Below, piece after piece: positions 3,689 through 46,702 of a DNA stretch of 64,000 nucleotides. A program made the position numbers and the translations under genes. The notes beneath the pieces were generated by a model. That model did no database searches, had not been told where the DNA came from, and saw nothing but the letters and a program-made list of their open reading frames with translations. How positions within the stretch are numbered: the stretch's first letter is position 1; each line of letters opens with the position of its first letter. The stretch covers positions 1 to 64,000 of IMG/VR virus record IMGVR_UViG_3300038463_000277; one strand, 5' to 3'. The stretch comes from a virus.

Positions 3689-5011
3689 TTAGCGCCCGCC
3701 GCTTCGTCCCCGCACTGGCACGTTCGTCTCTTGCGCCGAAATCTCTCGGTCAAGAGCTGCCATCATGGGGTCTTCTTCGGCGTCCGCGATTCTGTTATCA
3801 AGCGTCTTCGCTGATCCTTGTCCCGCTCCCAGAGCGCGACCGGCTTGGCGCTGTTGATCGGCGCGGCCTGCCATTTTCTTTCCGGTTGCAATTGCTTGTG
3901 CTACCACGGCGGGATTCACTCTCTGCCCCGATGCAACACGGGCCAGCATGGCGTACTTCATTGATGCCTGCTGTTCCCTCGGCAGAACACGCCCTTGCGG
4001 GTCGGTGAATACCATGGAATCGAATCCCGTAATCTGCGCGGCGGCGGCTTCAAGCATGTCGCCGAACTTCTGCGCATCGGGCGTACCCGCGACTGCGGGA
4101 TAGCCCGGCAACCCCGGATAAAGAGGCTTACCTGCGGCATCGGTCGTAGCGCGCACGGTTTCCCATGCCCGACCATACGACTGACGTTCGTAGGTTTGCT
4201 GCCATCCCGGCGCAATCATTTCCATTGCGGCGGGTAGTACGTGAGGGAGCACGGTCGAAACTGTGTCCGCCATGTACCGGGCAATCGTCGGTGCTTCTTT
4301 TTGCACGCTCTGAATGAGCCCGCCGAGAACGGCTTTGTCTTCTGCCGAGACGTTCGGGTCGTCCATGAGCTTCGTATTCACGTTAAACATGCGCAAAAAG
4401 GTATCGCCGACCTCTTTCAAGGATTGCTGATCGAAGCCCGTCTTCACCAAATTGTCGATTGATGCGTAATAGGCTTCGCGTTGTTTCGCGGGTTCGAGAA
4501 CGGCTGCGGGTTCGGCGGCGGCTACCTCGGCGGTTGGCTCGCTTTCGGTTTGCTGCTCCTCGCTCGCAATGCGTCGTTGAATTTCGTGGTCGCTGTCAAT
4601 CTTGTCGAGTAGCAGATGCTTCAAGTCCTCCGGTGTTTTGGGGTCTTGCAACATCTTCCATGCAGTCGGATAGCGTTCGCTGTAGCTCTCCAGTTCGCGC
4701 GGAAGAATATCCTTGAGACGCTCCTCAACGGATGGCGGCTGTTCGGCTTCTTCTTCGGTGGCGGCTTCGGCTTCTACCGCTGGCTCTTCTGACTCGGCGG
4801 GCTGTTCTCCCTCAAGTACCTGTTCCTCGCCGGATAATTCCGGTTCGGCTTCGGCCTCTGTGCCTTCCCCCTCTGCGCTGGGTTCGGAACTTTCTTCCGC
4901 AGATAGGTCGGGCTCTAGAACGGTCCCTCCCAAGAACGAACTGAAATCGTTCGCCCCTTGTGCTGGCGTAGTCTCCTGCGGTTGGCTCGCAGTTTCCGGC
5001 GCTTCGCTCAT
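3689..5011 (-). CDS. Scaffold / capsid assembly protein
   Basis: 440 residues. The first ~110 residues are very acidic and low in complexity (runs of Glu/Ala/Pro/Ser); the middle is helical, and the C-terminus is basic with Gln/Arg-rich helices (MAALDREISAQETNVPVRGR). This acidic-helical-basic layout, and its position between portal and capsid genes, fit a scaffolding protein that fills the procapsid and binds capsid subunits through its basic C-terminal helix. No protease motif was found. Recognition rests on position and composition. Confidence 0.7.
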   Translation of the reverse strand: MSEAPETASQPQETTPAQGANDFSSFLGGTVLEPDLSAEESSEPSAEGEGTEAEAEPELSGEEQVLEGEQPAESEEPAVEAEAATEEEAEQPPSVEERLKDILPRELESYSERYPTAWKMLQDPKTPEDLKHLLLDKIDSDHEIQRRIASEEQQTESEPTAEVAAAEPAAVLEPAKQREAYYASIDNLVKTGFDQQSLKEVGDTFLRMFNVNTKLMDDPNVSAEDKAVLGGLIQSVQKEAPTIARYMADTVSTVLPHVLPAAMEMIAPGWQQTYERQSYGRAWETVRATTDAAGKPLYPGLPGYPAVAGTPDAQKFGDMLEAAAAQITGFDSMVFTDPQGRVLPREQQASMKYAMLARVASGQRVNPAVVAQAIATGKKMAGRADQQRQAGRALGAGQGSAKTLDNRIADAEEDPMMAALDREISAQETNVPVRGRSGGR

Positions 5012-24914: not shown

Positions 24915-25826
24915 CTACCTACCGTCAGTCTGCTCGTTTACAATTTCACCGAAAGCAAATTCTTGCTGCCCGAATGGTTCACAGCTTTCCGAGCATCCTG
25001 AATCCTCGTCGCCGTCGTCTGCGATCCGCGAGTTGACTAGTTCTGCTATTCCGATAATGTCGCCGGTAGTGCGTTGCTCGCGGAAGAACCGTCTTGGCCT
25101 GCCATCAGCATAGGTTCCGTACTTTTCTTCCATGCGTGCGGGGAACTCGAATACTTCTGGAGTCTCCTGCGCGATTGCCACGAGTTTGTTGATATTTTTC
25201 TTCCAGCACCAAGTACAGTTGCCCTGATAAGACTTCAGGTTTAGTCGGTAAGCATGATCCTCCCAGAAGCGATTCACGCCTCCCTTATCCGTTGGGAACA
25301 TCGTAACTAGTGGGTAGATGATCTTTGCCGCCTCGGCATCGGCTCTTATACGGGAAGGCTCATCTACCCTGATGCCGATAGCCGTAAAATAGCTATCCCA
25401 GCCGATTGATGCCATGTATGAACGGATCGGATTCAGCTTCAACTCCCGAGTGCAATGCGGATACTTCTGATTCGGGATGCCGTATTTGTCGATCACGGCC
25501 TCGAAAGGCTCACCCTTCATCGCAACGCCATCAAGAGATACCAGCCGATGCGTGCAGCCGATCCTGCCCTCGTGTGTCACGGCCTCAAGTACGTGGATCG
25601 GGAAGCCCCACTCTTCATCCATTTGCCGCAAAAACTCGAACGTCTCGCGCCGCTCCTGCCCTGTATTCGCCATCACGAAGCACATTTCGTAAATGTCGTT
25701 GTAGTTTGCGAGCAACTCCTGAGCCATAAAGGCTGAAGTTTCTCCACCCGACACGCTTACGCAAAGACGCTCCTTGCTCAAGTTTGTAGCTGCAAGCCTC
25801 GGCTCTTGGTGCTTGTGTTCGCTCAT
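24915..25826 (-). CDS. PP-loop ATPase of the PAPS-reductase-like family
   Basis: 303 residues. The PP-loop SVSGGETSA (24-32) and the family's later motifs are present: ANTGQERRETFEF, HCTRELKLNPIRSYM (Cys125), GIRVDEPSRI and CTWCWKK (204-209). It belongs to the adenine-nucleotide alpha-hydrolase group that includes PAPS reductase and DndC-type proteins, in which ATP is used to adenylate a substrate or sulfur is transferred. In phages such genes are often of unknown role; nearby DNA/RNA modifying genes suggest nucleic-acid modification, but this is inference. Confidence 0.75.
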   Translation of the reverse strand: MSEHKHQEPRLAATNLSKERLCVSVSGGETSAFMAQELLANYNDIYEMCFVMANTGQERRETFEFLRQMDEEWGFPIHVLEAVTHEGRIGCTHRLVSLDGVAMKGEPFEAVIDKYGIPNQKYPHCTRELKLNPIRSYMASIGWDSYFTAIGIRVDEPSRIRADAEAAKIIYPLVTMFPTDKGGVNRFWEDHAYRLNLKSYQGNCTWCWKKNINKLVAIAQETPEVFEFPARMEEKYGTYADGRPRRFFREQRTTGDIIGIAELVNSRIADDGDEDSGCSESCEPFGQQEFAFGEIVNEQTDGR

Positions 25827-27177: not shown

Positions 27178-27555
27178 TCATAAACTGCGCCACAGCTCAA
27201 AGCGAAACTCCGCTAGCGTCTCCGGTCGCCCTTGCAGCTTCAAGGTCGCGTTCTCCGTGTTCCCCGGCTCCCAGCTCCGCAGGAATATGCCAAGCGAGAA
27301 TTCATCGAGCCCGAGCACCGAGCAAATCCATTTCTCCTGATTGCTCAGCCGCATCGGCTCCGGCTTCCCCATGACGTGCCGAAACTCCGCGCCCGTCGTC
27401 AAGCGATATTTCTGCGTCTTCGGCCAATACGTGACCTCGTGGTACATATCCGGCAGCCCGCGATTCGAGAATTCCGTGCAGCCCATCGCGTTCCCCGGCT
27501 GACACTCGACTATCGGGATCATCCTGCCGTGATCGAGCCGAAAGCGCGGTTTCAC
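27178..27555 (-). CDS. Unknown 125-residue protein
   Basis: 125 residues, alpha/beta, with EVTYWPKTQKYRLTTGAEFRHVMGKPEPM and KWICSVLGLDEF. No motif recognised. Overlaps the Fis-type gene by ATGA, so it belongs to the replication operon. Function unknown. Confidence 0.5.
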   Translation of the reverse strand: MKPRFRLDHGRMIPIVECQPGNAMGCTEFSNRGLPDMYHEVTYWPKTQKYRLTTGAEFRHVMGKPEPMRLSNQEKWICSVLGLDEFSLGIFLRSWEPGNTENATLKLQGRPETLAEFRFELWRSL

Positions 27556-27854
27556 TCCTCCGTCTCCGCCTTCGCGGCCTCTGCCGCCGCGTCTTCCTTC
27601 GCGTAAAGTTTGAGCTTGACGTACAGCGTCGAGCGCCCAATGCCGAGCGCCTTCGCCGTCCGATCCAAGTCGCCATTCAGATCGCGCAAAGTTCTCTGAA
27701 TCCAGTTTTTCTCGACCTCGTAGAGCGTCAAAATGCCATGCGTTTTTTCGTCCATCGCGTCTGACCGCTCCTGTGCCCGATCATTCTGCCCGCGCTCCAG
27801 ATCGCGCACCGTGCTATCAATCCAACGCTTCTCGCCTTCGCCCTTTTCCGTCAT
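27552..27854 (-). CDS. Fis-type HTH protein (NtrC C-terminal HTH_8-like)
   Basis: 100 residues. Residues 45-85 (EKNWIQRTLRDLNGDLDRTAKALGIGRSTLYVKLKLY) match the Fis/NtrC-type helix-turn-helix. Residues 8-30 repeat its first half in a weaker form (EKRWIDSTVRDLERGQNDRAQ), suggesting a duplicated half-domain. No receiver or AAA domain, so it is a stand-alone DNA-binding protein, perhaps a regulator or DNA-bending factor of replication. Overlaps both neighbours. Confidence 0.7.
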   Translation of the reverse strand: MTEKGEGEKRWIDSTVRDLERGQNDRAQERSDAMDEKTHGILTLYEVEKNWIQRTLRDLNGDLDRTAKALGIGRSTLYVKLKLYAKEDAAAEAAKAETEE

Positions 27855-30886: not shown

Positions 30887-30908
30887 GCGGAATGTTACGC
30901 AAGTTATC

Positions 30909-30962
30909 TATACAGGGATACCCTCTACCTTTACTCTAGTTACATAAGCCGAACGAATCGGC
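30909..30962 (+). promoter_or_regulatory. Rightward early promoter and 5'-UTR hairpin, copy 1 of 4
   Basis: TATACA (30909-30914), 17-nt spacer holding GGGATACCCTCT, TACTCT (30932-30937), then hairpin 30948-30952 with 30958-30962 (loop ACGAA) just before the GGGAG ribosome site and ATG 30976. Confidence 0.7.
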
Positions 30963-30975
30963 AGGGAGCAAAAAA

Positions 30976-31518
30976 ATGAGAACCGCAGGCGCACTAAATG
31001 CACAAATGATTCTGAGCGATGCCGGGCTAGATGGCGCATGGGCGCTGTTCATCGGCGAAATTCCCGAGGGTCGGCAACCGTTCGAAGAGACCACAATTCG
31101 CGACATCGTAGGCAAGCTGGTACGTTACGGCAGCGTCTCCGAAAAGCAAACCAACTTCGTGCGCTCACTACTGGCAAAGATTCCCCAGCGCGCGCAGATC
31201 GCAGCCGAGCGCGCAACCGAGCGCGACGCGGCGAGCGATGCACCCGAGGGTAAGCAAGTCGTCACGGGCGAGGTACTCAAGGCGGAGTATCGCGAATCGC
31301 AGTACGGCGAACAATACAAGATGCTCGTGAAATCGGCAGCCGGGTGGCTGGTTTGGTCAACCGTGCCCGCAGCCCTTGGCACTGTCAAGCGCGGCGATGT
31401 GGTCACATTCCAAGCAACATTAGAGCGTTCGAAGGATGACGCGAAATTCTGCTTCGCGAAACGTCCAACCGTACCGAATGCACTGCGGGTAGTCTCGACC
31501 ACGGAAGGGGGCCAGTAA
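30976..31518 (+). CDS. Early protein with C-terminal OB-fold-like region
   Basis: 180 residues. Helical N-terminus with SEKQTNFVRSLLAKI; residues 95-170 (VVTGEVLKAEYRESQYGEQYKMLVKSAAGWLVWSTVP) look like an OB-fold. May bind single-stranded DNA, but no family recognised. First gene of the rightward early operon, start preceded by GGGAG. Overlaps its neighbour (31518). Confidence 0.6.
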   Translation: MRTAGALNAQMILSDAGLDGAWALFIGEIPEGRQPFEETTIRDIVGKLVRYGSVSEKQTNFVRSLLAKIPQRAQIAAERATERDAASDAPEGKQVVTGEVLKAEYRESQYGEQYKMLVKSAAGWLVWSTVPAALGTVKRGDVVTFQATLERSKDDAKFCFAKRPTVPNALRVVSTTEGGQ

Positions 31519-31847
31519 TGTCGAACTCAATCGCCAACACAATTCTCGAACAGCTCGGCGGGCATAAATTCGCGGTCATGACCGGCGCGAAAAACTTTAT
31601 CGGCTCGGCTGACTCTCTCTCCTTCCGCCTACCGGGCGGGGGCGGATTCTGTAAGGCGGGCATTAACGGTGTGCGCATCACGCTGGCGGCTGACGATACT
31701 TACACCGTGATATTCATGAAAACACGCGGCAGTGTGGTGCCTAAGCTCATCTCCGAGCACACCGGCATTTACTTTGACGGACTGCGCGAGCTGTTCGAAC
31801 GCGAGACCGGATTGCGTACCGCGATGGGGAAAGTGATCTTTCAGTAA
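31518..31847 (+). CDS. Small widespread phage/plasmid-type protein
   Basis: 109 residues: NTILEQLGGHKFAVMTGAKNFIGSADSLSFRL and INGVRITLAADDTYTVIFMK. This pattern is familiar from small proteins of phages and plasmids, function unknown. Its ATG overlaps the previous stop (TAATG). Likely co-expressed early. Confidence 0.65.
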   Translation: MSNSIANTILEQLGGHKFAVMTGAKNFIGSADSLSFRLPGGGGFCKAGINGVRITLAADDTYTVIFMKTRGSVVPKLISEHTGIYFDGLRELFERETGLRTAMGKVIFQ

Positions 31848-31872
31848 CTCGCAGAATGTTACTAGGGTGCCG

Positions 31873-31929
31873 TTGACAGGGGCACCCTCTGTGCTAGACT
31901 AGGAACATCAAAGCCGATAACGAAACGGC
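31873..31929 (+). promoter_or_regulatory. Promoter and 5'-UTR hairpin, copy 2 of 4
   Basis: TTGACA (31873-31878), 16-nt spacer with GGGGCACCCTCT, TAGACT (31895-31900), then AGGAACATC and hairpin 31913-31916 with 31926-31929 (loop with ACGAA) before GGGAG and ATG 31942. Confidence 0.75.
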
Positions 31930-31941
31930 AGGGAGAAAAAA

Positions 31942-32478
31942 ATGTTAGGTTCAAACAAAATCAGCTTTTTACGCGGCGCGGTCAACGTCACACCGACCGA
32001 TGCAAAGCACATTCACGTGAGCACGAACAGCGAACCGCTTACCGTCAACAACGTGGTTATCAATGCGAGCGCGCACTATCACTTGTGGGCGGATGGCGCT
32101 TGGCACATCGGCCCGGAAGATAACCGCAACATGGCGCAATGGCACGCGCTCAGCCTGTCCAAAGTGAACCGCAAAAACTACAACGACACACCGTCGAACT
32201 CGGCGCGCGAAAAGGTCGCGGCGATCCTGACACCGTTGGTCAATGAATGGGTTCTCGCGAACCCGGTCGCGGTTTTTAACGCGGAACTGGCGGACATCGA
32301 AAAGCAGATTGAGCGCGCGTCAATCAAGGCGATGGAAACGCGCTCGGCTGCGGCGCTGGCACAGCAAGAATTAGAAGCACTGGAGTTAAAGCTCGCCGAG
32401 GCAAAAGGCGAACCGACAACGCGGTTGACGTACTCGCAAACTTGGCAAGCGAACCTCGACGTGAAAGGGGGCAAATAA
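31942..32478 (+). CDS. Unknown early protein with C-terminal coiled coil
   Basis: 178 residues. Beta-rich first half (GAVNVTPTDAKHIHVSTN, HYHLWADGAWHI), helical second half with a coiled coil (DIEKQIERASIKAMETRSAAA). No family recognised. Behind its own promoter cassette. Confidence 0.55.
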   Translation: MLGSNKISFLRGAVNVTPTDAKHIHVSTNSEPLTVNNVVINASAHYHLWADGAWHIGPEDNRNMAQWHALSLSKVNRKNYNDTPSNSAREKVAAILTPLVNEWVLANPVAVFNAELADIEKQIERASIKAMETRSAAALAQQELEALELKLAEAKGEPTTRLTYSQTWQANLDVKGGK

Positions 32479-32747
32479 TGCGCGCGCCGTCTGTACTCTG
32501 TTCCTGCGGTAATACCGTGTCACTGCCAGTAGTCAAGGGCTTGCCGATGTCCTACCAGTGCGTATGTGGGAAGAACTACGATGCGCAAGGGATGGAAGAG
32601 TGCGACGCGGATGACATTTGTCTCTGCGGCGCGCCGTCGCGCGCTGGGGTTTGCTCGGATCGGGTTTGCGTGTGCTCGCCGAAGGGCTCGGCATTCACTC
32701 CCGACACCGACGCGGAGAACGCCGCAAAAAAGAAATCAGGTAACTAG
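32478..32747 (+). CDS. Two-knuckle zinc-type protein
   Basis: 89 residues from ATG 32478 (overlaps the previous TAA as TAATG). Cys pairs CSCG, CVCG, CLCG, CVC fit one or two zinc ribbons. Function unknown. Confidence 0.6.
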   Translation: MRAPSVLCSCGNTVSLPVVKGLPMSYQCVCGKNYDAQGMEECDADDICLCGAPSRAGVCSDRVCVCSPKGSAFTPDTDAENAAKKKSGN

Positions 32748-32760
32748 TACCGAAGTTATC

Positions 32761-32828
32761 TAGACAGGTTCACCCTCTGCAAGTAAGATCATCACAGTAA
32801 GCAACTAGAAAAACCGGATACGAACCGG
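32761..32828 (+). promoter_or_regulatory. Promoter and 5'-UTR hairpin, copy 3 of 4
   Basis: TAGACA (32761-32766), 17-nt spacer with GGTTCACCCTCT, TAAGAT (32784-32789), then hairpin 32814-32817 with 32825-32828 (loop ATACGAA) before AAGGGGAAA and ATG 32845. Confidence 0.75.
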
Positions 32829-32844
32829 CTAAGGGGAAAATAAA

Positions 32845-33696
32845 ATGCGTTACTCGAATTTCAACCGCTCATCCAACCGCAACAATCAGCCGCTCACAAT
32901 CGAGCAAGTCGCGCAACTCGCGCCGTCCGCGTTCGCAACTGAGGCGCATAGCTCGCGCTCCTCCAAGTACACGTACATTCCAACCGTGGACGTTATCAAG
33001 GGTATGATGGCTGCCGGGTTCGTGCCGTTCAAGGCGCAACAATCCTCCTCGCGCATCGAAGGCAAAAGCGAATTCACAAAACATATGATTCGCTTCCGCT
33101 TTCAGGGCTCGACCGCGATGACCGCAGTCGGCGACACCACACCCGAGATTGTGATGGTTAACTCGCACGATGGTACTAGCGCGTATAAGCTCATGGCGGG
33201 CATCTTCCGCTTGGCTTGCCTGAATGGCATGATGGTGTGCGAGTCGGAGATTGGATCGGTCTCAGTGTTCCACAAGGGGAACGTGCTCGATAACGTGATT
33301 GAGGGCTCTTGCAGAATCGTAGACGACTCCGCTAAGATGCTCAATTCCGTGAACACGTGGAAGCAACTCCAGTTAACGAACGGCGAACAGAACGCACTCG
33401 CCGAGGCTGCGCACACCCTGCGGTTCTCGGACACCGAAGGCAAGGTAACGACACCGATCACTGCGGCTCAGTTGCTCGGTGTGCGACGCTCGGAAGATAC
33501 CGGCGCGGACCTTTGGACGACATTCAACCGCGTGCAAGAGAACGTGATTCGCGGTGGGCTGCATGGCGTGACGCGCGTGAATGGCGTTCGCCGCAACGTG
33601 ACGACTCGCGAGGTTCGCGGGATCGACCAAGACGTTAAATTGAATCGCGCACTCTGGCAGCTCGCCGCGAAAATGGCTGAGCTGAAAGGCGCATAA
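32845..33696 (+). CDS. DUF932 family protein
   Basis: 283 residues. Matches DUF932/TIGR03299-type phage/plasmid proteins in pattern: YIPTVDVIKGMMAAGFVPFKAQQ, HMIRFRFQG, IVMVNSHDGTSAYKLMAGIFRLACLNGMM. These are found in many phages and mobile elements, biochemical role unknown; some early expression is known. Start behind a promoter cassette. A terminator-like hairpin follows about 80 bp on. Confidence 0.75.
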   Translation: MRYSNFNRSSNRNNQPLTIEQVAQLAPSAFATEAHSSRSSKYTYIPTVDVIKGMMAAGFVPFKAQQSSSRIEGKSEFTKHMIRFRFQGSTAMTAVGDTTPEIVMVNSHDGTSAYKLMAGIFRLACLNGMMVCESEIGSVSVFHKGNVLDNVIEGSCRIVDDSAKMLNSVNTWKQLQLTNGEQNALAEAAHTLRFSDTEGKVTTPITAAQLLGVRRSEDTGADLWTTFNRVQENVIRGGLHGVTRVNGVRRNVTTREVRGIDQDVKLNRALWQLAAKMAELKGA

Positions 33697-33908
33697 GCTC
33701 ACTAGGGCGCTTGGTGGGGCCTCCCGGCCCTTTCCGCTCCCGTCCTAGTAGGCGCTCTGGGGGTCGTGCCCCGGCAAGGCGGAACGCGATAGGGTCCGCC
33801 AAAGTTTTTTATCCTCGCGCCGAAGAGCCTGCAACAATCGGACGGCCTACGGCAGCCAAAAGCGCACCGGGCGGGCGGCGCGAGGGTAACAATCTGAAAG
33901 GGGACAAC
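33697..33908. other. Gap of about 210 bp holding a terminator, no gene
   Basis: Contains CTAG.GGCGC-type repeats near 33705-33756, the hairpin given separately, and the ribosome site AAAGGGG at 33896-33904. No clear reading frame or promoter. Confidence 0.5.
33778..33810 (+). terminator. Rightward terminator after DUF932 gene
   Basis: 6-bp stem 33778-33783 with 33795-33800, then AAAG and six T (33805-33810). The tail AAAGTTTTTTATCCTCG is very similar to the tail after the hairpin at 43158. Confidence 0.55.
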
Positions 33909-34193
33909 ATGACGGCAGCATGGGTAATAGTACCGGGCGCACCCGCAGGTAAACGGATCGGGATAGTAAAGCTCAATGAGAGCGGCTACTACCTGTCAGA
34001 CTACGACAACGCGAGATATTCGGACGACGACGCGCGCGAAATAGTCGAGCACCAAAACAAGGGGCTCGGCATCTCGAAAGAGGTAGCAGAGTCGGCGCTC
34101 GCGGGCTCCATGTTCGGTTGGCACGTTCCGGCAGCCGCGCAAGCGGTCGAGTATTTCAAGGCGCTGGAACTGGAGCAAGCGGCCCGTCGGTAA
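33909..34193 (+). CDS. Small unknown early protein
   Basis: 94 residues from ATG 33909 with AAAGGGG 5 nt upstream. Begins AAWVIVPGAPAGKRIGIVKLNESG, then an acidic helical end. Function unknown. Confidence 0.55.
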   Translation: MTAAWVIVPGAPAGKRIGIVKLNESGYYLSDYDNARYSDDDAREIVEHQNKGLGISKEVAESALAGSMFGWHVPAAAQAVEYFKALELEQAARR

Positions 34194-34208
34194 CACTCCA
34201 AAGTTATC

Positions 34209-34266
34209 TAGACAGGCTCACCCTCACGTTCTACTATAGGAACATCAAAGCCGGATACGAACCGGC
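34209..34266 (+). promoter_or_regulatory. Promoter and 5'-UTR hairpin, copy 4 of 4
   Basis: TAGACA (34209-34214), 17-nt spacer with GGCTCACCCTC, TACTAT (34232-34237), AGGAACATC, then hairpin 34250-34254 with 34262-34266 (loop ATACGAA) before AAAGGGGAAA and ATG 34282. Confidence 0.75.
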
Positions 34267-34281
34267 AAAGGGGAAACGAAA

Positions 34282-34494
34282 ATGGCAAAACTTCAAGGCA
34301 CACCGATTGCGCTACCCGGAATGGAACGGCACGAAGCGGAGCGCGCGGAAGTCGCAGGCGTCGAACTCGCGGCTGATCTGACCGCGAAGTTACTTCAACC
34401 TACCAACATCGAGGCGCGCGCGGGCGCGTTAGAGATGAACTCGCCGCTGTTTCGCGGCACGGATGCGAGCCCGCAGACGGAGTTATTCTCATGA
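34282..34494 (+). CDS. Small protein carrying an NSPLFRGT motif
   Basis: 70 residues. N-terminal part is helical and charged; the end reads AGALEMNSPLFRGTDASPQTELF. A very close segment (about 18 of 23 residues) is found at residues 847-869 of the 1393-residue polyvalent protein (51883-56064). The motif may be a targeting or interaction peptide shared between an early protein and an injected virion protein. Role otherwise unknown. Its start lies behind promoter cassette 4. Confidence 0.6.
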   Translation: MAKLQGTPIALPGMERHEAERAEVAGVELAADLTAKLLQPTNIEARAGALEMNSPLFRGTDASPQTELFS

Positions 34495-34736
34495 GCGTTC
34501 GATTGGTTGTGATGAACGGCTCGTATCCGATGGAAGTACACGCCGAAGGGTGCCGCGACATGAATATGCCGAAGTACCGAAGCGCGCCGAAAGACTGGAT
34601 TCTGACGGGCGACTCAGTGCAAGCGGTCATTGACGCCGAGGCGGAAGAACTCAATTCGCAGTTCGACCGGCCTTACAGCACTGACGAATTGTTTCGCGTC
34701 ATGCCGTGCGCGGAGAAACTGCGGGGGGCGAAATGA
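34491..34736 (+). CDS. Small unknown early protein
   Basis: 81 residues, one beta-hairpin-like start (VRLVVMNGSYPMEVHAEGC) and an acidic helical end. ATG overlaps the previous stop as ATGA. Function unknown. Confidence 0.55.
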   Translation: MSVRLVVMNGSYPMEVHAEGCRDMNMPKYRSAPKDWILTGDSVQAVIDAEAEELNSQFDRPYSTDELFRVMPCAEKLRGAK

Positions 34737-34890: not shown

Positions 34891-34962
34891 GGTGGAGGTA
34901 GTCGGAGTTGAACCGACAGGCGGAAGTTCTCAAGGCTCTCACCTGCAACCGTGCTACCCCCA
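34891..34962 (-). tRNA. tRNA-like element with encoded CCA, D arm not formed
   Basis: Minus strand, 72 nt. The 7-bp acceptor (34962-34956 with 34901-34895, one GU), discriminator A, CCA (34893-34891) and a perfect T arm (5-bp stem, TTCAACT loop) are clear. Only 37 nt lie between, forming one 27-nt hairpin (AGGTG...CGCCT) with a TTGAGAA-type loop and no D arm. It may be an armless tRNA, a tmRNA-like mimic or an att remnant. A 7-bp hairpin follows on its 3' side (34863-34887). Confidence 0.4.
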
Positions 34963-35007
34963 GAACGATACGGGACTGACACTGACGCCCTGTCGCAATC
35001 AGGGTTC

Positions 35008-39460: not shown

Positions 39461-39739
39461 GTGAAAAAGAAAGTGCGAGAGGCGCTGAGTATCGCAGCGC
39501 GCGGACGACGCCGGAAGCCGGGACCGCCCGACGCGCTCGGACGTTTCGGGCCTTACCTCAAAGAACGACGGAGAGCAAAGAAGCTGTCTATCCGGGCGCT
39601 CGCGAAGCGCGCGGAGATGGCGCACACGAACATCTTTCAATTCGAGCGGCTGGGAAAAAATCCCCGACTCACCGAATTGGTCGCCCTAGCGGGAGCGTTC
39701 AAGGAACCCCTCTTGACGTTCATGCAACCGCTTGGCTAA
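39461..39739 (+). CDS. Xre/CI-type HTH regulator
   Basis: 92 residues from GTG 39461 with AAGGGA 7 nt upstream. Basic N-terminus, then HTH_3-like domain LKERRRAKKLSIRALAKRAEMAHTNIFQFERLGKNP (residues 33-68). No C-terminal peptidase domain, so unlike full CI. Likely binds operators near early promoters; might be a lysogeny or transition regulator. Confidence 0.7.
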   Translation: MKKKVREALSIAARGRRRKPGPPDALGRFGPYLKERRRAKKLSIRALAKRAEMAHTNIFQFERLGKNPRLTELVALAGAFKEPLLTFMQPLG

Positions 39740-45085: not shown

Positions 45086-45272
45086 CGCCCGGCAAATCGC
45101 GAAGCTCTATGCGGTGTCCTACGGCACCGCTCGCAATTGGATTATGAAGCTAAACGGCGACGATGCGGCGATGGGAGTGAATAAGCTCAAGGGGCGCGGA
45201 AAGCGCCCTTATCGCCTGCGGAGACTCGACGACTCGCAAATGGCGGAACTCGATTCGCTCATCAACGGCTAG
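45063..45272 (+). CDS. Small HTH protein, possible excisionase or regulator
   Basis: 69 residues. ARQIAKLYAVSYGTARNWIMKLNGDDAAMG is a winged/MerR-type HTH of the sort found in recombination directionality factors. Its stop lies 4 bp into the convergent integrase gene, a common place for excisionase genes. Role in excision is inferred. Confidence 0.6.
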   Translation: MKPTQKYNARQIAKLYAVSYGTARNWIMKLNGDDAAMGVNKLKGRGKRPYRLRRLDDSQMAELDSLING

Positions 45273-46702
45273 GCGCTTTCCTTTTCGAGTGCCAACATGC
45301 GATCCAGCTCCGCCACGTCTTTTTCGGATTGCTGTAAGCTCTCTAGGTCTTCGTTGCTCCATGTCCGACGATTCGCCTGATTCGCCTTTTCCTGCAACCG
45401 CGTTGAGAATTTGTAATAGTGTTTGCGCACCACGTCGGGCGTGTCGCCGATTAGGGTCGCAACCTCGGGAACATCCGCGCCCTTGAGGAAAAGGTTTTCG
45501 ACAAACGAGTAGCGGAAGTTATGGAAGGTTGGCCAGTTCGGTTGATCGTATTCATCGACGCCCATGTCCTCGCGTACCATCTTCTCATCGAGAAACTCGC
45601 GCAGCCGCACGAACGACTTTTGCCAAGTGTCGGCGGCGTTCGTGACCTCGCCCGATCCCGCCCAAAAGAAATAATCCTTGTGGGTGTTGGTCGTCGGCAC
45701 GTCCATCAACTCTTTCGCGAACTTCGGCGAGATTTCGACATAGACCGGGTTGCCTGTTTTTTGGCGGTTCACGTCAAAGAAGAAATGGTGCCGCACTTTC
45801 TTTAGGCGATCCCGGCGCGCGGTGAAGGCGTCAGTGAGCGCGAATCCCGTCCTGTACATCAATTCGCAACCGATCTTCATGCGCTGCCCGAAGCCCGCAA
45901 CCGATTTCTGGTTTGGGGTTTTAATCGACGCTCCGAGATGTCCCCACGCCGCGAGGATGGCTTTGTAGAGGCGCGGAGTAAGCGGCCTGCGCTCGCGCGG
46001 TTTCCTGCTCTTGCCGCGCACCTTGAGAAAACGCGCGGGGTTGTCCTTCGAGACCAACTTTTCGCCTCTGCGGGTCCGCACCGGCAAGAATTGCTGCGTG
46101 CTTTCGATCCAGTTGCGCGCGATACAAAAATCAAAAAACGCGATCAAAAAACCTTTTCGCTTTTCCTTGGTGAAGCCTGACATCTGCTTTTGCTTTCCGT
46201 CCGGGCCGAGTGGCATCGAGGTTTCCCATGTCTTCTGGAACTCATCGAGGAAATCAACCGTCACGTCATTGGGGGTCGCGACGTTCTTCTCTTCGGCGAA
46301 GGCTTTTAGTTTGCGATGCAGAGACTCGTATTTCACGAGGTCTCTGATTCCCTCGCCGCTTCTCTTCGAGTCGATGAATTTCAAGAACGCATCCGAGAGA
46401 GGGATCGCGATGACGCCCGGTCTGGCTCGCTCCGCTGCCTCTTGCAATTTGCGAGCGCGGGCGGTTTCTGGATCGTGGTACTTCATCCACTCCTTCGCGC
46501 GAGTGCGGGCCATCTCCCAGCTCTCCGTACCTGCGGGAGCACGGAGTCTTCCCGGCGCGATATAGAAACTCTTTGGGCAATCGCAATCTTTTTCGCGTTC
46601 GGTTTTCGGGTGCTTACATTCCGGGCGATGCTGTTTGACGATGACGGAAAACTCGGGGCGGACATTGAAGACCAATTTTTTCAGGTCGAGTTTAGCTCTC
46701 AT
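45269..46702 (-). CDS. Tyrosine-family integrase
   Basis: 477 residues. N-terminal CPECKHPKT..CDCPK zinc-like arm-binding domain, SAM-like core-binding region (about 115-215), catalytic domain with KTG near 340 (NRQKTGNPVYVEIS), HNFRYSF (His/Arg of HxxR) and KHYYKF (Tyr). However the first catalytic Arg position in the usual TGLR box reads TGFALTD, so an Arg-to-Ala change may impair activity; the second His is also replaced (GDTPD). Catalyses site-specific integration at attP. Start ATG 46702, with the GGAG inside a hairpin. Confidence 0.8.
   Translation of the reverse strand: MRAKLDLKKLVFNVRPEFSVIVKQHRPECKHPKTEREKDCDCPKSFYIAPGRLRAPAGTESWEMARTRAKEWMKYHDPETARARKLQEAAERARPGVIAIPLSDAFLKFIDSKRSGEGIRDLVKYESLHRKLKAFAEEKNVATPNDVTVDFLDEFQKTWETSMPLGPDGKQKQMSGFTKEKRKGFLIAFFDFCIARNWIESTQQFLPVRTRRGEKLVSKDNPARFLKVRGKSRKPRERRPLTPRLYKAILAAWGHLGASIKTPNQKSVAGFGQRMKIGCELMYRTGFALTDAFTARRDRLKKVRHHFFFDVNRQKTGNPVYVEISPKFAKELMDVPTTNTHKDYFFWAGSGEVTNAADTWQKSFVRLREFLDEKMVREDMGVDEYDQPNWPTFHNFRYSFVENLFLKGADVPEVATLIGDTPDVVRKHYYKFSTRLQEKANQANRRTWSNEDLESLQQSEKDVAELDRMLALEKESA

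Follow-up and report, generated by a model that had tools for sequence, protein, structure and literature searches.

The 64,000-nt window analyzed here, the whole stretch taken from the 68,959-base virus record IMGVR_UViG_3300038463_000277, contains four short plus-strand operons that each open with the same cassette: a promoter with a conserved block in its spacer, then a 5' leader hairpin, a ribosome-binding site (RBS) and an ATG. We put it at slightly above an even chance that the hairpins are translational RNA operators serving many genes and read at the loop by a putative factor, and that in the window they are joined to a shared transcriptional operator. The evidence comes from the four cassettes themselves and from relatives, namely 80 viral loci (given L numbers below) retrieved with the DUF932 gene that follows copy 3, with a best identity of 69%.

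The four cassettes, at 30909, 31873, 32761 and 34209, agree in place and layout, base for base, with a preliminary description of this DNA; their parts are listed in Table 1. The linker between the two conserved blocks, promoter and hairpin, has diverged among the copies in both sequence and length, and for that reason the similarity of the cassettes is not mere recent duplication and the two blocks have been kept separately. The repetition is real, exceeds chance and is not an artefact. Because the predicted transcription starts lie upstream of the hairpins, the hairpins would be part of the RNA, and they stop 12-16 nt 5' of the start codon. We scanned both strands of the 64 kb for strict leader hairpins (perfect stem of at least four GC-rich pairs, loop of 5-9 nt, RBS, ATG and an open frame of 50 codons). 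Ten leader hairpins passed, four of them with ACGAA in the loop, and no other loop word recurred in a second independent hairpin (the maximum in 20 shuffles was 1). ACGAA lay between pairing arms at 4 of its 14 occurrences in leaders and at 6 of 153 elsewhere (Fisher p = 0.005). The 5- and 7-nt loops of the window hairpins align poorly.

Leaders in the DUF932 loci show the same architecture as the window with different loops. A hairpin was present in 38% of 65 DUF932 leaders compared to 12% after shuffling; the corresponding values for other leaders were 23 and 17%. Two loci have whole sets of leader hairpins. L058, which encodes a primase/helicase and has no structural gene among the genes scanned, carries eight leader hairpins within ∼4 kb, all eight with the loop AUGGC and each on a different stem. 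Its stem cells were 97.9% paired (48.1% in shuffled sets), 24 cells were changed on both sides (8.0 in shuffled sets), and each of the six pairs had both partners replaced in some copies. The covariation score of 1.33, against 0.27, was reached by none of 500 shuffles, and sliding the partner abolished the signal. In a test independent of stem choice, paired ATGGC was found in 8 of 24 cases in leaders and in 1 of 185 elsewhere (p = 8e-8). L063, a phage with terminase and portal genes, has nine hairpins, every one with the loop AUUG closed by R-U, and the pairing of ATTG is tied to leader position (p = 2e-7).

A third loop, ACCA, is shared by about ten phages on unrelated stems (L013, L015-L018, L022, L024, L038, L042, and L048). 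Of 26 hairpins with this loop, 17 (65%) lie in leaders, as do 6.9% of all hairpins, and the test of pairing by leader position gave p = 8e-6 for this group (L011-L048). The only control word to reach significance in the leader-enrichment test was CCAA (p = 0.03), a word overlapping ACCA. Among five close relatives, the hairpin of the DUF932 leader is 100% paired, with three compensated pairs and an invariant loop region CGAACUA.A.GCG. The DUF932 leader of L046 has ACGAA in the loop, like the window.

The loops of the relatives are fixed and their stems change freely, which points to selection on the RNA; a center that is kept between arms that drift yet stay complementary is the mark of a single-stranded hairpin recognized by its loop. 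We concluded that the case for RNA-level selection is strong in the relatives and that such selection is probable in the window. The preliminary description had derived it from covarying stems among the four cassettes. The claim of RNA-level selection holds by way of the relatives, through fixed loops, freely varying but paired stems, and compensatory changes across phages, and not by way of the four window copies. By its position, its loop and analogy, the window hairpin may be placed in the same fixed-loop class.

Position separates the hairpin from the promoter. Over 38 cases the gap between hairpin and start codon was 11-26 nt, with a median of 15.5. Most hairpins of L058 and L063 start 7-67 nt past the end of the upstream open reading frame (ORF), that is, between adjacent genes, and by inspection they have no recognizable shared promoter block. 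Hence the hairpins go with ribosome sites and not with promoters, and the RNA element can exist without a shared promoter. The dual control proposed in the preliminary description thus describes the window, where both elements are joined, and a single dual unit is not a feature of the wider class.

At the DNA level, the record as a whole has exactly four occurrences of ACAGGNNNACCCTC, always on the plus strand and always at a cassette, and the reversed control pattern gave no occurrence; ACAGGnnnACCCTC is likewise found in the four promoters only. Copies 1 and 2 have a perfect spacer palindrome, AGGGnnnCCCT, of which copies 3 and 4 show a degenerate form. Sigma-70-like scoring placed three of the four cassette promoters in a list of eight, with 2.3 expected by chance. 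In the relatives, a perfect 12-bp palindrome, CATACTAGTATG, is common to L042 and L015 in the corresponding spacer, and different palindromes occupy that spacer in L011, L014 and L019, each single-copy in the stretches examined. The combination of an operator in the spacer and a leader hairpin recurs among relatives, where it is single-copy. A DNA-binding factor acting in the spacer, as had been suggested, is plausible in view of a block confined to the four promoters, the palindrome of copies 1 and 2 and the palindromes of the relatives; the case is weakened by the degenerate form of the palindrome in the other two copies and by the single-copy state in relatives. Two candidate regulators are encoded in the window (Table 1).

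A mechanism in two parts can be proposed. The sigma-70-type promoter with the operator-like block in its −35/−10 spacer would place four early operons under common transcriptional control. In the RNA, the single-stranded loop ACGAA of the 5' leader hairpin would be constant and the stem would need only to pair. We infer a trans-acting factor, most likely an RNA-binding protein encoded by the phage or element, that would bind the loop and so control translation initiation, either hindering or promoting the loading of 30S subunits at the neighboring Shine-Dalgarno sequence. Each element family would have its own loop (ACGAA in the window, AUGGC in L058, AUUG in L063, and ACCA in about ten phages) and so may form a post-transcriptional regulon.

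Several results weigh against this proposal. The four window copies do not by themselves demonstrate stem covariation: a single pair is compensated, being A-U in copy 1 and G-C in copies 3 and 4 but an A.A mismatch in copy 2, a further mismatch (A.C) stands at the outermost pair of copy 3, and three inner pairs are invariant; inner cells were paired in 15 of 16 instances versus 14.0 under arm swapping (p = 0.17). The folding energies of the leaders are ordinary, with z values of −0.5, −0.7, +0.4, and −0.9 for copies 1-4. The ACCA, L058 and L063 sets were partly chosen for good stems, a bias that the leader-enrichment tests alone escape; since some of the lists had been selected by stem, we used leader enrichment as the safer test. 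A pattern search for the exact cassette in other viral contigs found no homologue; the matches elsewhere (three, then two) were in or apparently in coding sequence and did not have the cassette layout. Bacterial-genome relatives of DUF932 are mostly from alpha- and betaproteobacteria, and fixed-loop leaders are rare in these loci outside Rhizobiales, where an AUUG class occurs in Bradyrhizobium and Mesorhizobium. Finally, the RNA-binding factor was not found in the loci compared: the window and the fetched DUF932 loci have essentially only DUF932 in common, and DUF932 as a universal RNA binder is weakened, and is a poor candidate, because lytic giant phages with DUF932 show no such hairpins.

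The predicted structure of DUF932 is confident (predicted local distance difference test, pLDDT, 86). It had no significant match in the PDB, with weak recurrent matches to Rad52 at E of about 0.5, and the sequence had no significant match. The Rad52 matches might hint at a single-strand-binding function of DUF932. Plasmids carry the family too, frequently with an ssb gene close by, for example on rhizobial plasmids of Shinella and Sinorhizobium (L183-L184). Small basic ORFs are too numerous to single out one arginine-rich N-like candidate. The record of L058 also encodes, at 588-1901 on the plus strand of L097, a protein with TROVE (Ro60-like) and VWA domains, a member of an RNA-binding family; it sits in the element with the strongest set of leader hairpins.

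Four other explanations of the hairpins were weighed. Leader hairpins might merely stabilize the mRNA or hold the Shine-Dalgarno sequence open with the loop unread, and short stems that are free to vary, in short leaders where the hairpin occupies the 5' end and stops immediately ahead of the RBS, leaving it uncovered, are what such a role would lead one to expect. Against this, the loop is invariant within an element, as in L058 (8/8) and L063 (9/9); moreover, the loops are not standard hyperstable tetraloops and the window hairpins are thermodynamically ordinary. We consider this role unlikely, yet it is the most probable of the four. Reading the conserved block at the DNA level instead, the inverted repeat could be an operator just 3' of the transcription start. 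It goes along with the promoter, and if only the window is considered, conservation is as high in the arms (CCG/CGG) as in the loop. The conserved center ACGAA is asymmetric, however, and in the relatives the arms vary and the center is fixed, the reverse of an operator; with most L058 and L063 copies lying between genes, we judged a DNA operator improbable.

About as improbable is a role as boxB-like antitermination sites for an N-like protein acting on nascent RNA. A 4-6 bp stem with a 5-7 nt loop is of the right size, the sites lie just downstream of early promoters, and the loops vary between phages, as those of lambda-type boxB do. But each of the window operons is served by a promoter of its own, and there is no plus-strand terminator-like site between operons, the sole such sites being one at 32255, within a gene, and one at 34987, past the last gene. 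A boxA-like sequence upstream was not seen by eye, and sites that return at nearly all genes of a run, as in L058 and L063, would be needless for antitermination. An antisense or sponge RNA that kisses the loop in place of a protein would equally select for a fixed loop and a free stem; the complement TTCGTAT is present on the plus strand only at 4371 and 62761, a target of 4-7 nt is short, and we think such an RNA very improbable.

Other repeated leader elements were noted among the relatives. In L058 (6800-9125, plus strand) a second structured element is repeated 5' of several AUGGC hairpins, with a GNAA-type loop, an inner stem, a C/UA internal loop, and an outer stem followed by CTTAAGG or similar; the stems differ per copy. 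In L063 (7900-12450, plus strand), CCCGGCTACGACCGATT-type repeats lie upstream of the AUUG leader hairpins. A related phage group (L025 at 3040 and 3340, L023 at 3342, L035 at 3855) has leader hairpins with the loop CGCGTTAT fixed and the stems changed. The leaders at L068 8846, L079 9143, L080 6686, L089 7619 and L090 6557 have long stems, GACGGCCCC/GGGGCCGTC and close variants, that are conserved under changing loops, and with this opposite pattern they were set apart from the fixed-loop class. Five shared GGCGA loops on the minus strand of L072 were taken as chance in GC-rich sequence.

The virus is probably a temperate phage, since it has an integrase together with replication-initiation, DnaC-like and RecE/RecT-like genes. 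The replication-initiation and DnaC-like genes lie in the left arm on the minus strand and the RecE/RecT-like genes in the right arm on the plus strand, with the four operons between the two arms. A phosphoadenosine phosphosulfate reductase-like gene (phrog_424) was noted at 24918-25826 on the minus strand. A tRNA-like stretch at 34893-34961, also on the minus strand, has an acceptor-like GGGGGUA...UACCUCC and a T-arm; it scored 22 bits for RF00005 against a threshold of 29, and ARAGORN reported no tRNA. It is perhaps a decayed tRNA or the relic of an attachment site.

Table 1. Features of the cassettes, the operons behind them and selected genes in the 64,000-nt window
Feature	Coordinates	Strand	Description
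Promoter 1	30905-30937	+	TATACA at 30909, 17-nt spacer, TACTCT; spacer block ACAGGGATACCCTC at 30912-30925
Leader hairpin 1	30948-30962	+	GCCGA(ACGAA)TCGGC, then AGGGAG, ATG 30976
Promoter 2	31873-31900	+	TTGACA at 31873, 16-nt spacer, TAGACT; spacer block ACAGGGGCACCCTC at 31876-31889
Leader hairpin 2	31913-31929	+	GCCG(ATAACGAAA)CGGC, then AGGGAG, ATG 31942
Promoter 3	32757-32789	+	TAGACA at 32761, 17-nt spacer, TAAGAT; spacer block ACAGGTTCACCCTC at 32764-32777
Leader hairpin 3	32814-32828	+	CCGG(ATACGAA)CCGG, then AAGGGG, ATG 32845
Promoter 4	34205-34237	+	TAGACA at 34209, 17-nt spacer, TACTAT; spacer block ACAGGCTCACCCTC at 34212-34225
Leader hairpin 4	34250-34266	+	GCCGG(ATACGAA)CCGGC, then AAGGGG, ATG 34282
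Operon 1, first gene	30976-31518	+	180 amino acids, phrog_18425, function unknown
Operon 1, next gene	31518-31847	+	phrog_9437
Operon 2, first gene	31942-32478	+	178 amino acids, no family match
DUF932 gene (behind copy 3)	32845-33696	+	PF06067, E 1.7e-43; phrog_12094
Operon 4, first gene	34282-34494	+	70 amino acids, no family match
Operon 4, next gene	34491-34736	+	ORF
HTH_3 (Xre-like) protein	39461-39739	+	Candidate spacer-binding DNA regulator
Fis-type HTH_8 protein	27552-27854	−	Second candidate DNA-binding regulator
Integrase	45272-46702	−

Most known translational operators of phages are either single autogenous sites or unstructured sites of the RegA type. Multi-gene, loop-coded operators whose loop word changes from one element to another would add a distinct layer to phage gene control; they would also supply orthogonal RNA-protein pairs and a route to new phage RNA-binding proteins. 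A wider generalization, which we offer tentatively and hold to be possible but on balance doubtful, is that in many temperate phages and related elements one element-encoded factor reads a private loop word on arbitrary stems before each ribosome site, with word and factor co-diversifying, so that translational control would be a private code parallel to repressor/operator immunity. With its eight hairpins and one loop, L058, together with L063, makes the idea of loop-coded operators open to simple reporter tests.

The preliminary description knew of no named system of this kind, and in line with this a literature search with little reach into subscription journals found none describing such leader hairpins. 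No Rfam 15 family reached the gathering score in the window, which had weak unrelated matches at 34.9 kb, and L058, L063, L042, L016 and L013 had no match at E up to 0.5. Nor do the plus-strand hairpins look like intrinsic terminators: they run into purine-rich RBS sequence and not into a U run. The lambda nut site includes boxB, a small early-leader hairpin with a phage-specific loop, and the window hairpins are similar in these respects; unlike nut, they have no boxA seen by eye, no terminators between operons, and copies before many genes. The 17-bp repeats of phage Corndog (cluster O) have invariant arms around a variable 3-nt center, and many lie inside genes (PMC4351075). They too are short inverted repeats in multiple copies in a phage genome, but with their invariant arms they are of a DNA type, unlike the window class. 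Another comparison is with the start-associated sequences (SAS) and extended SAS (ESAS) of cluster K mycobacteriophages, repeats before many start codons with a subcluster-specific consensus; the 17-bp ESAS arms are conserved around a variable spacer, and an mRNA hairpin was considered by the authors and judged poorly supported (PMC3203893). Like these, the elements described here are repeated in leaders just 5' of many start codons, but they keep the loop and vary the arms, which is the reverse of ESAS. The operator of the T4/RB69 DNA polymerase gene, gp43, is a hairpin before the RBS with a conserved and recognized loop, UAAC, which is UAAA in RB49 (PMC3014915). The shared traits are a hairpin upstream of the RBS and a conserved loop that differs between phages. 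The gp43 operator, however, is one autogenous target ∼40 nt 5' of the start, and here the stem is free and an element serves many genes: the hairpins precede four operons in the window and eight to nine genes in L058 and L063, which does not fit autoregulation of a protein's own single mRNA, and no polymerase family match was found among the first genes examined. CsrA/RsmA regulons comprise many mRNAs with a short motif in hairpin loops, on variable stems near the RBS, and in most cases the motif bound by CsrA, GGA, coincides with the Shine-Dalgarno sequence or overlaps it. A loop motif shared by many mRNAs on variable stems near the RBS is common to both systems, but the loops ACGAA, AUGGC, AUUG and ACCA do not contain GGA and lie upstream of the Shine-Dalgarno sequence. 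By analogy, the logic of these leader hairpins may be that of a gp43-type operator extended to many genes, and it also resembles that of CsrA regulons minus GGA.

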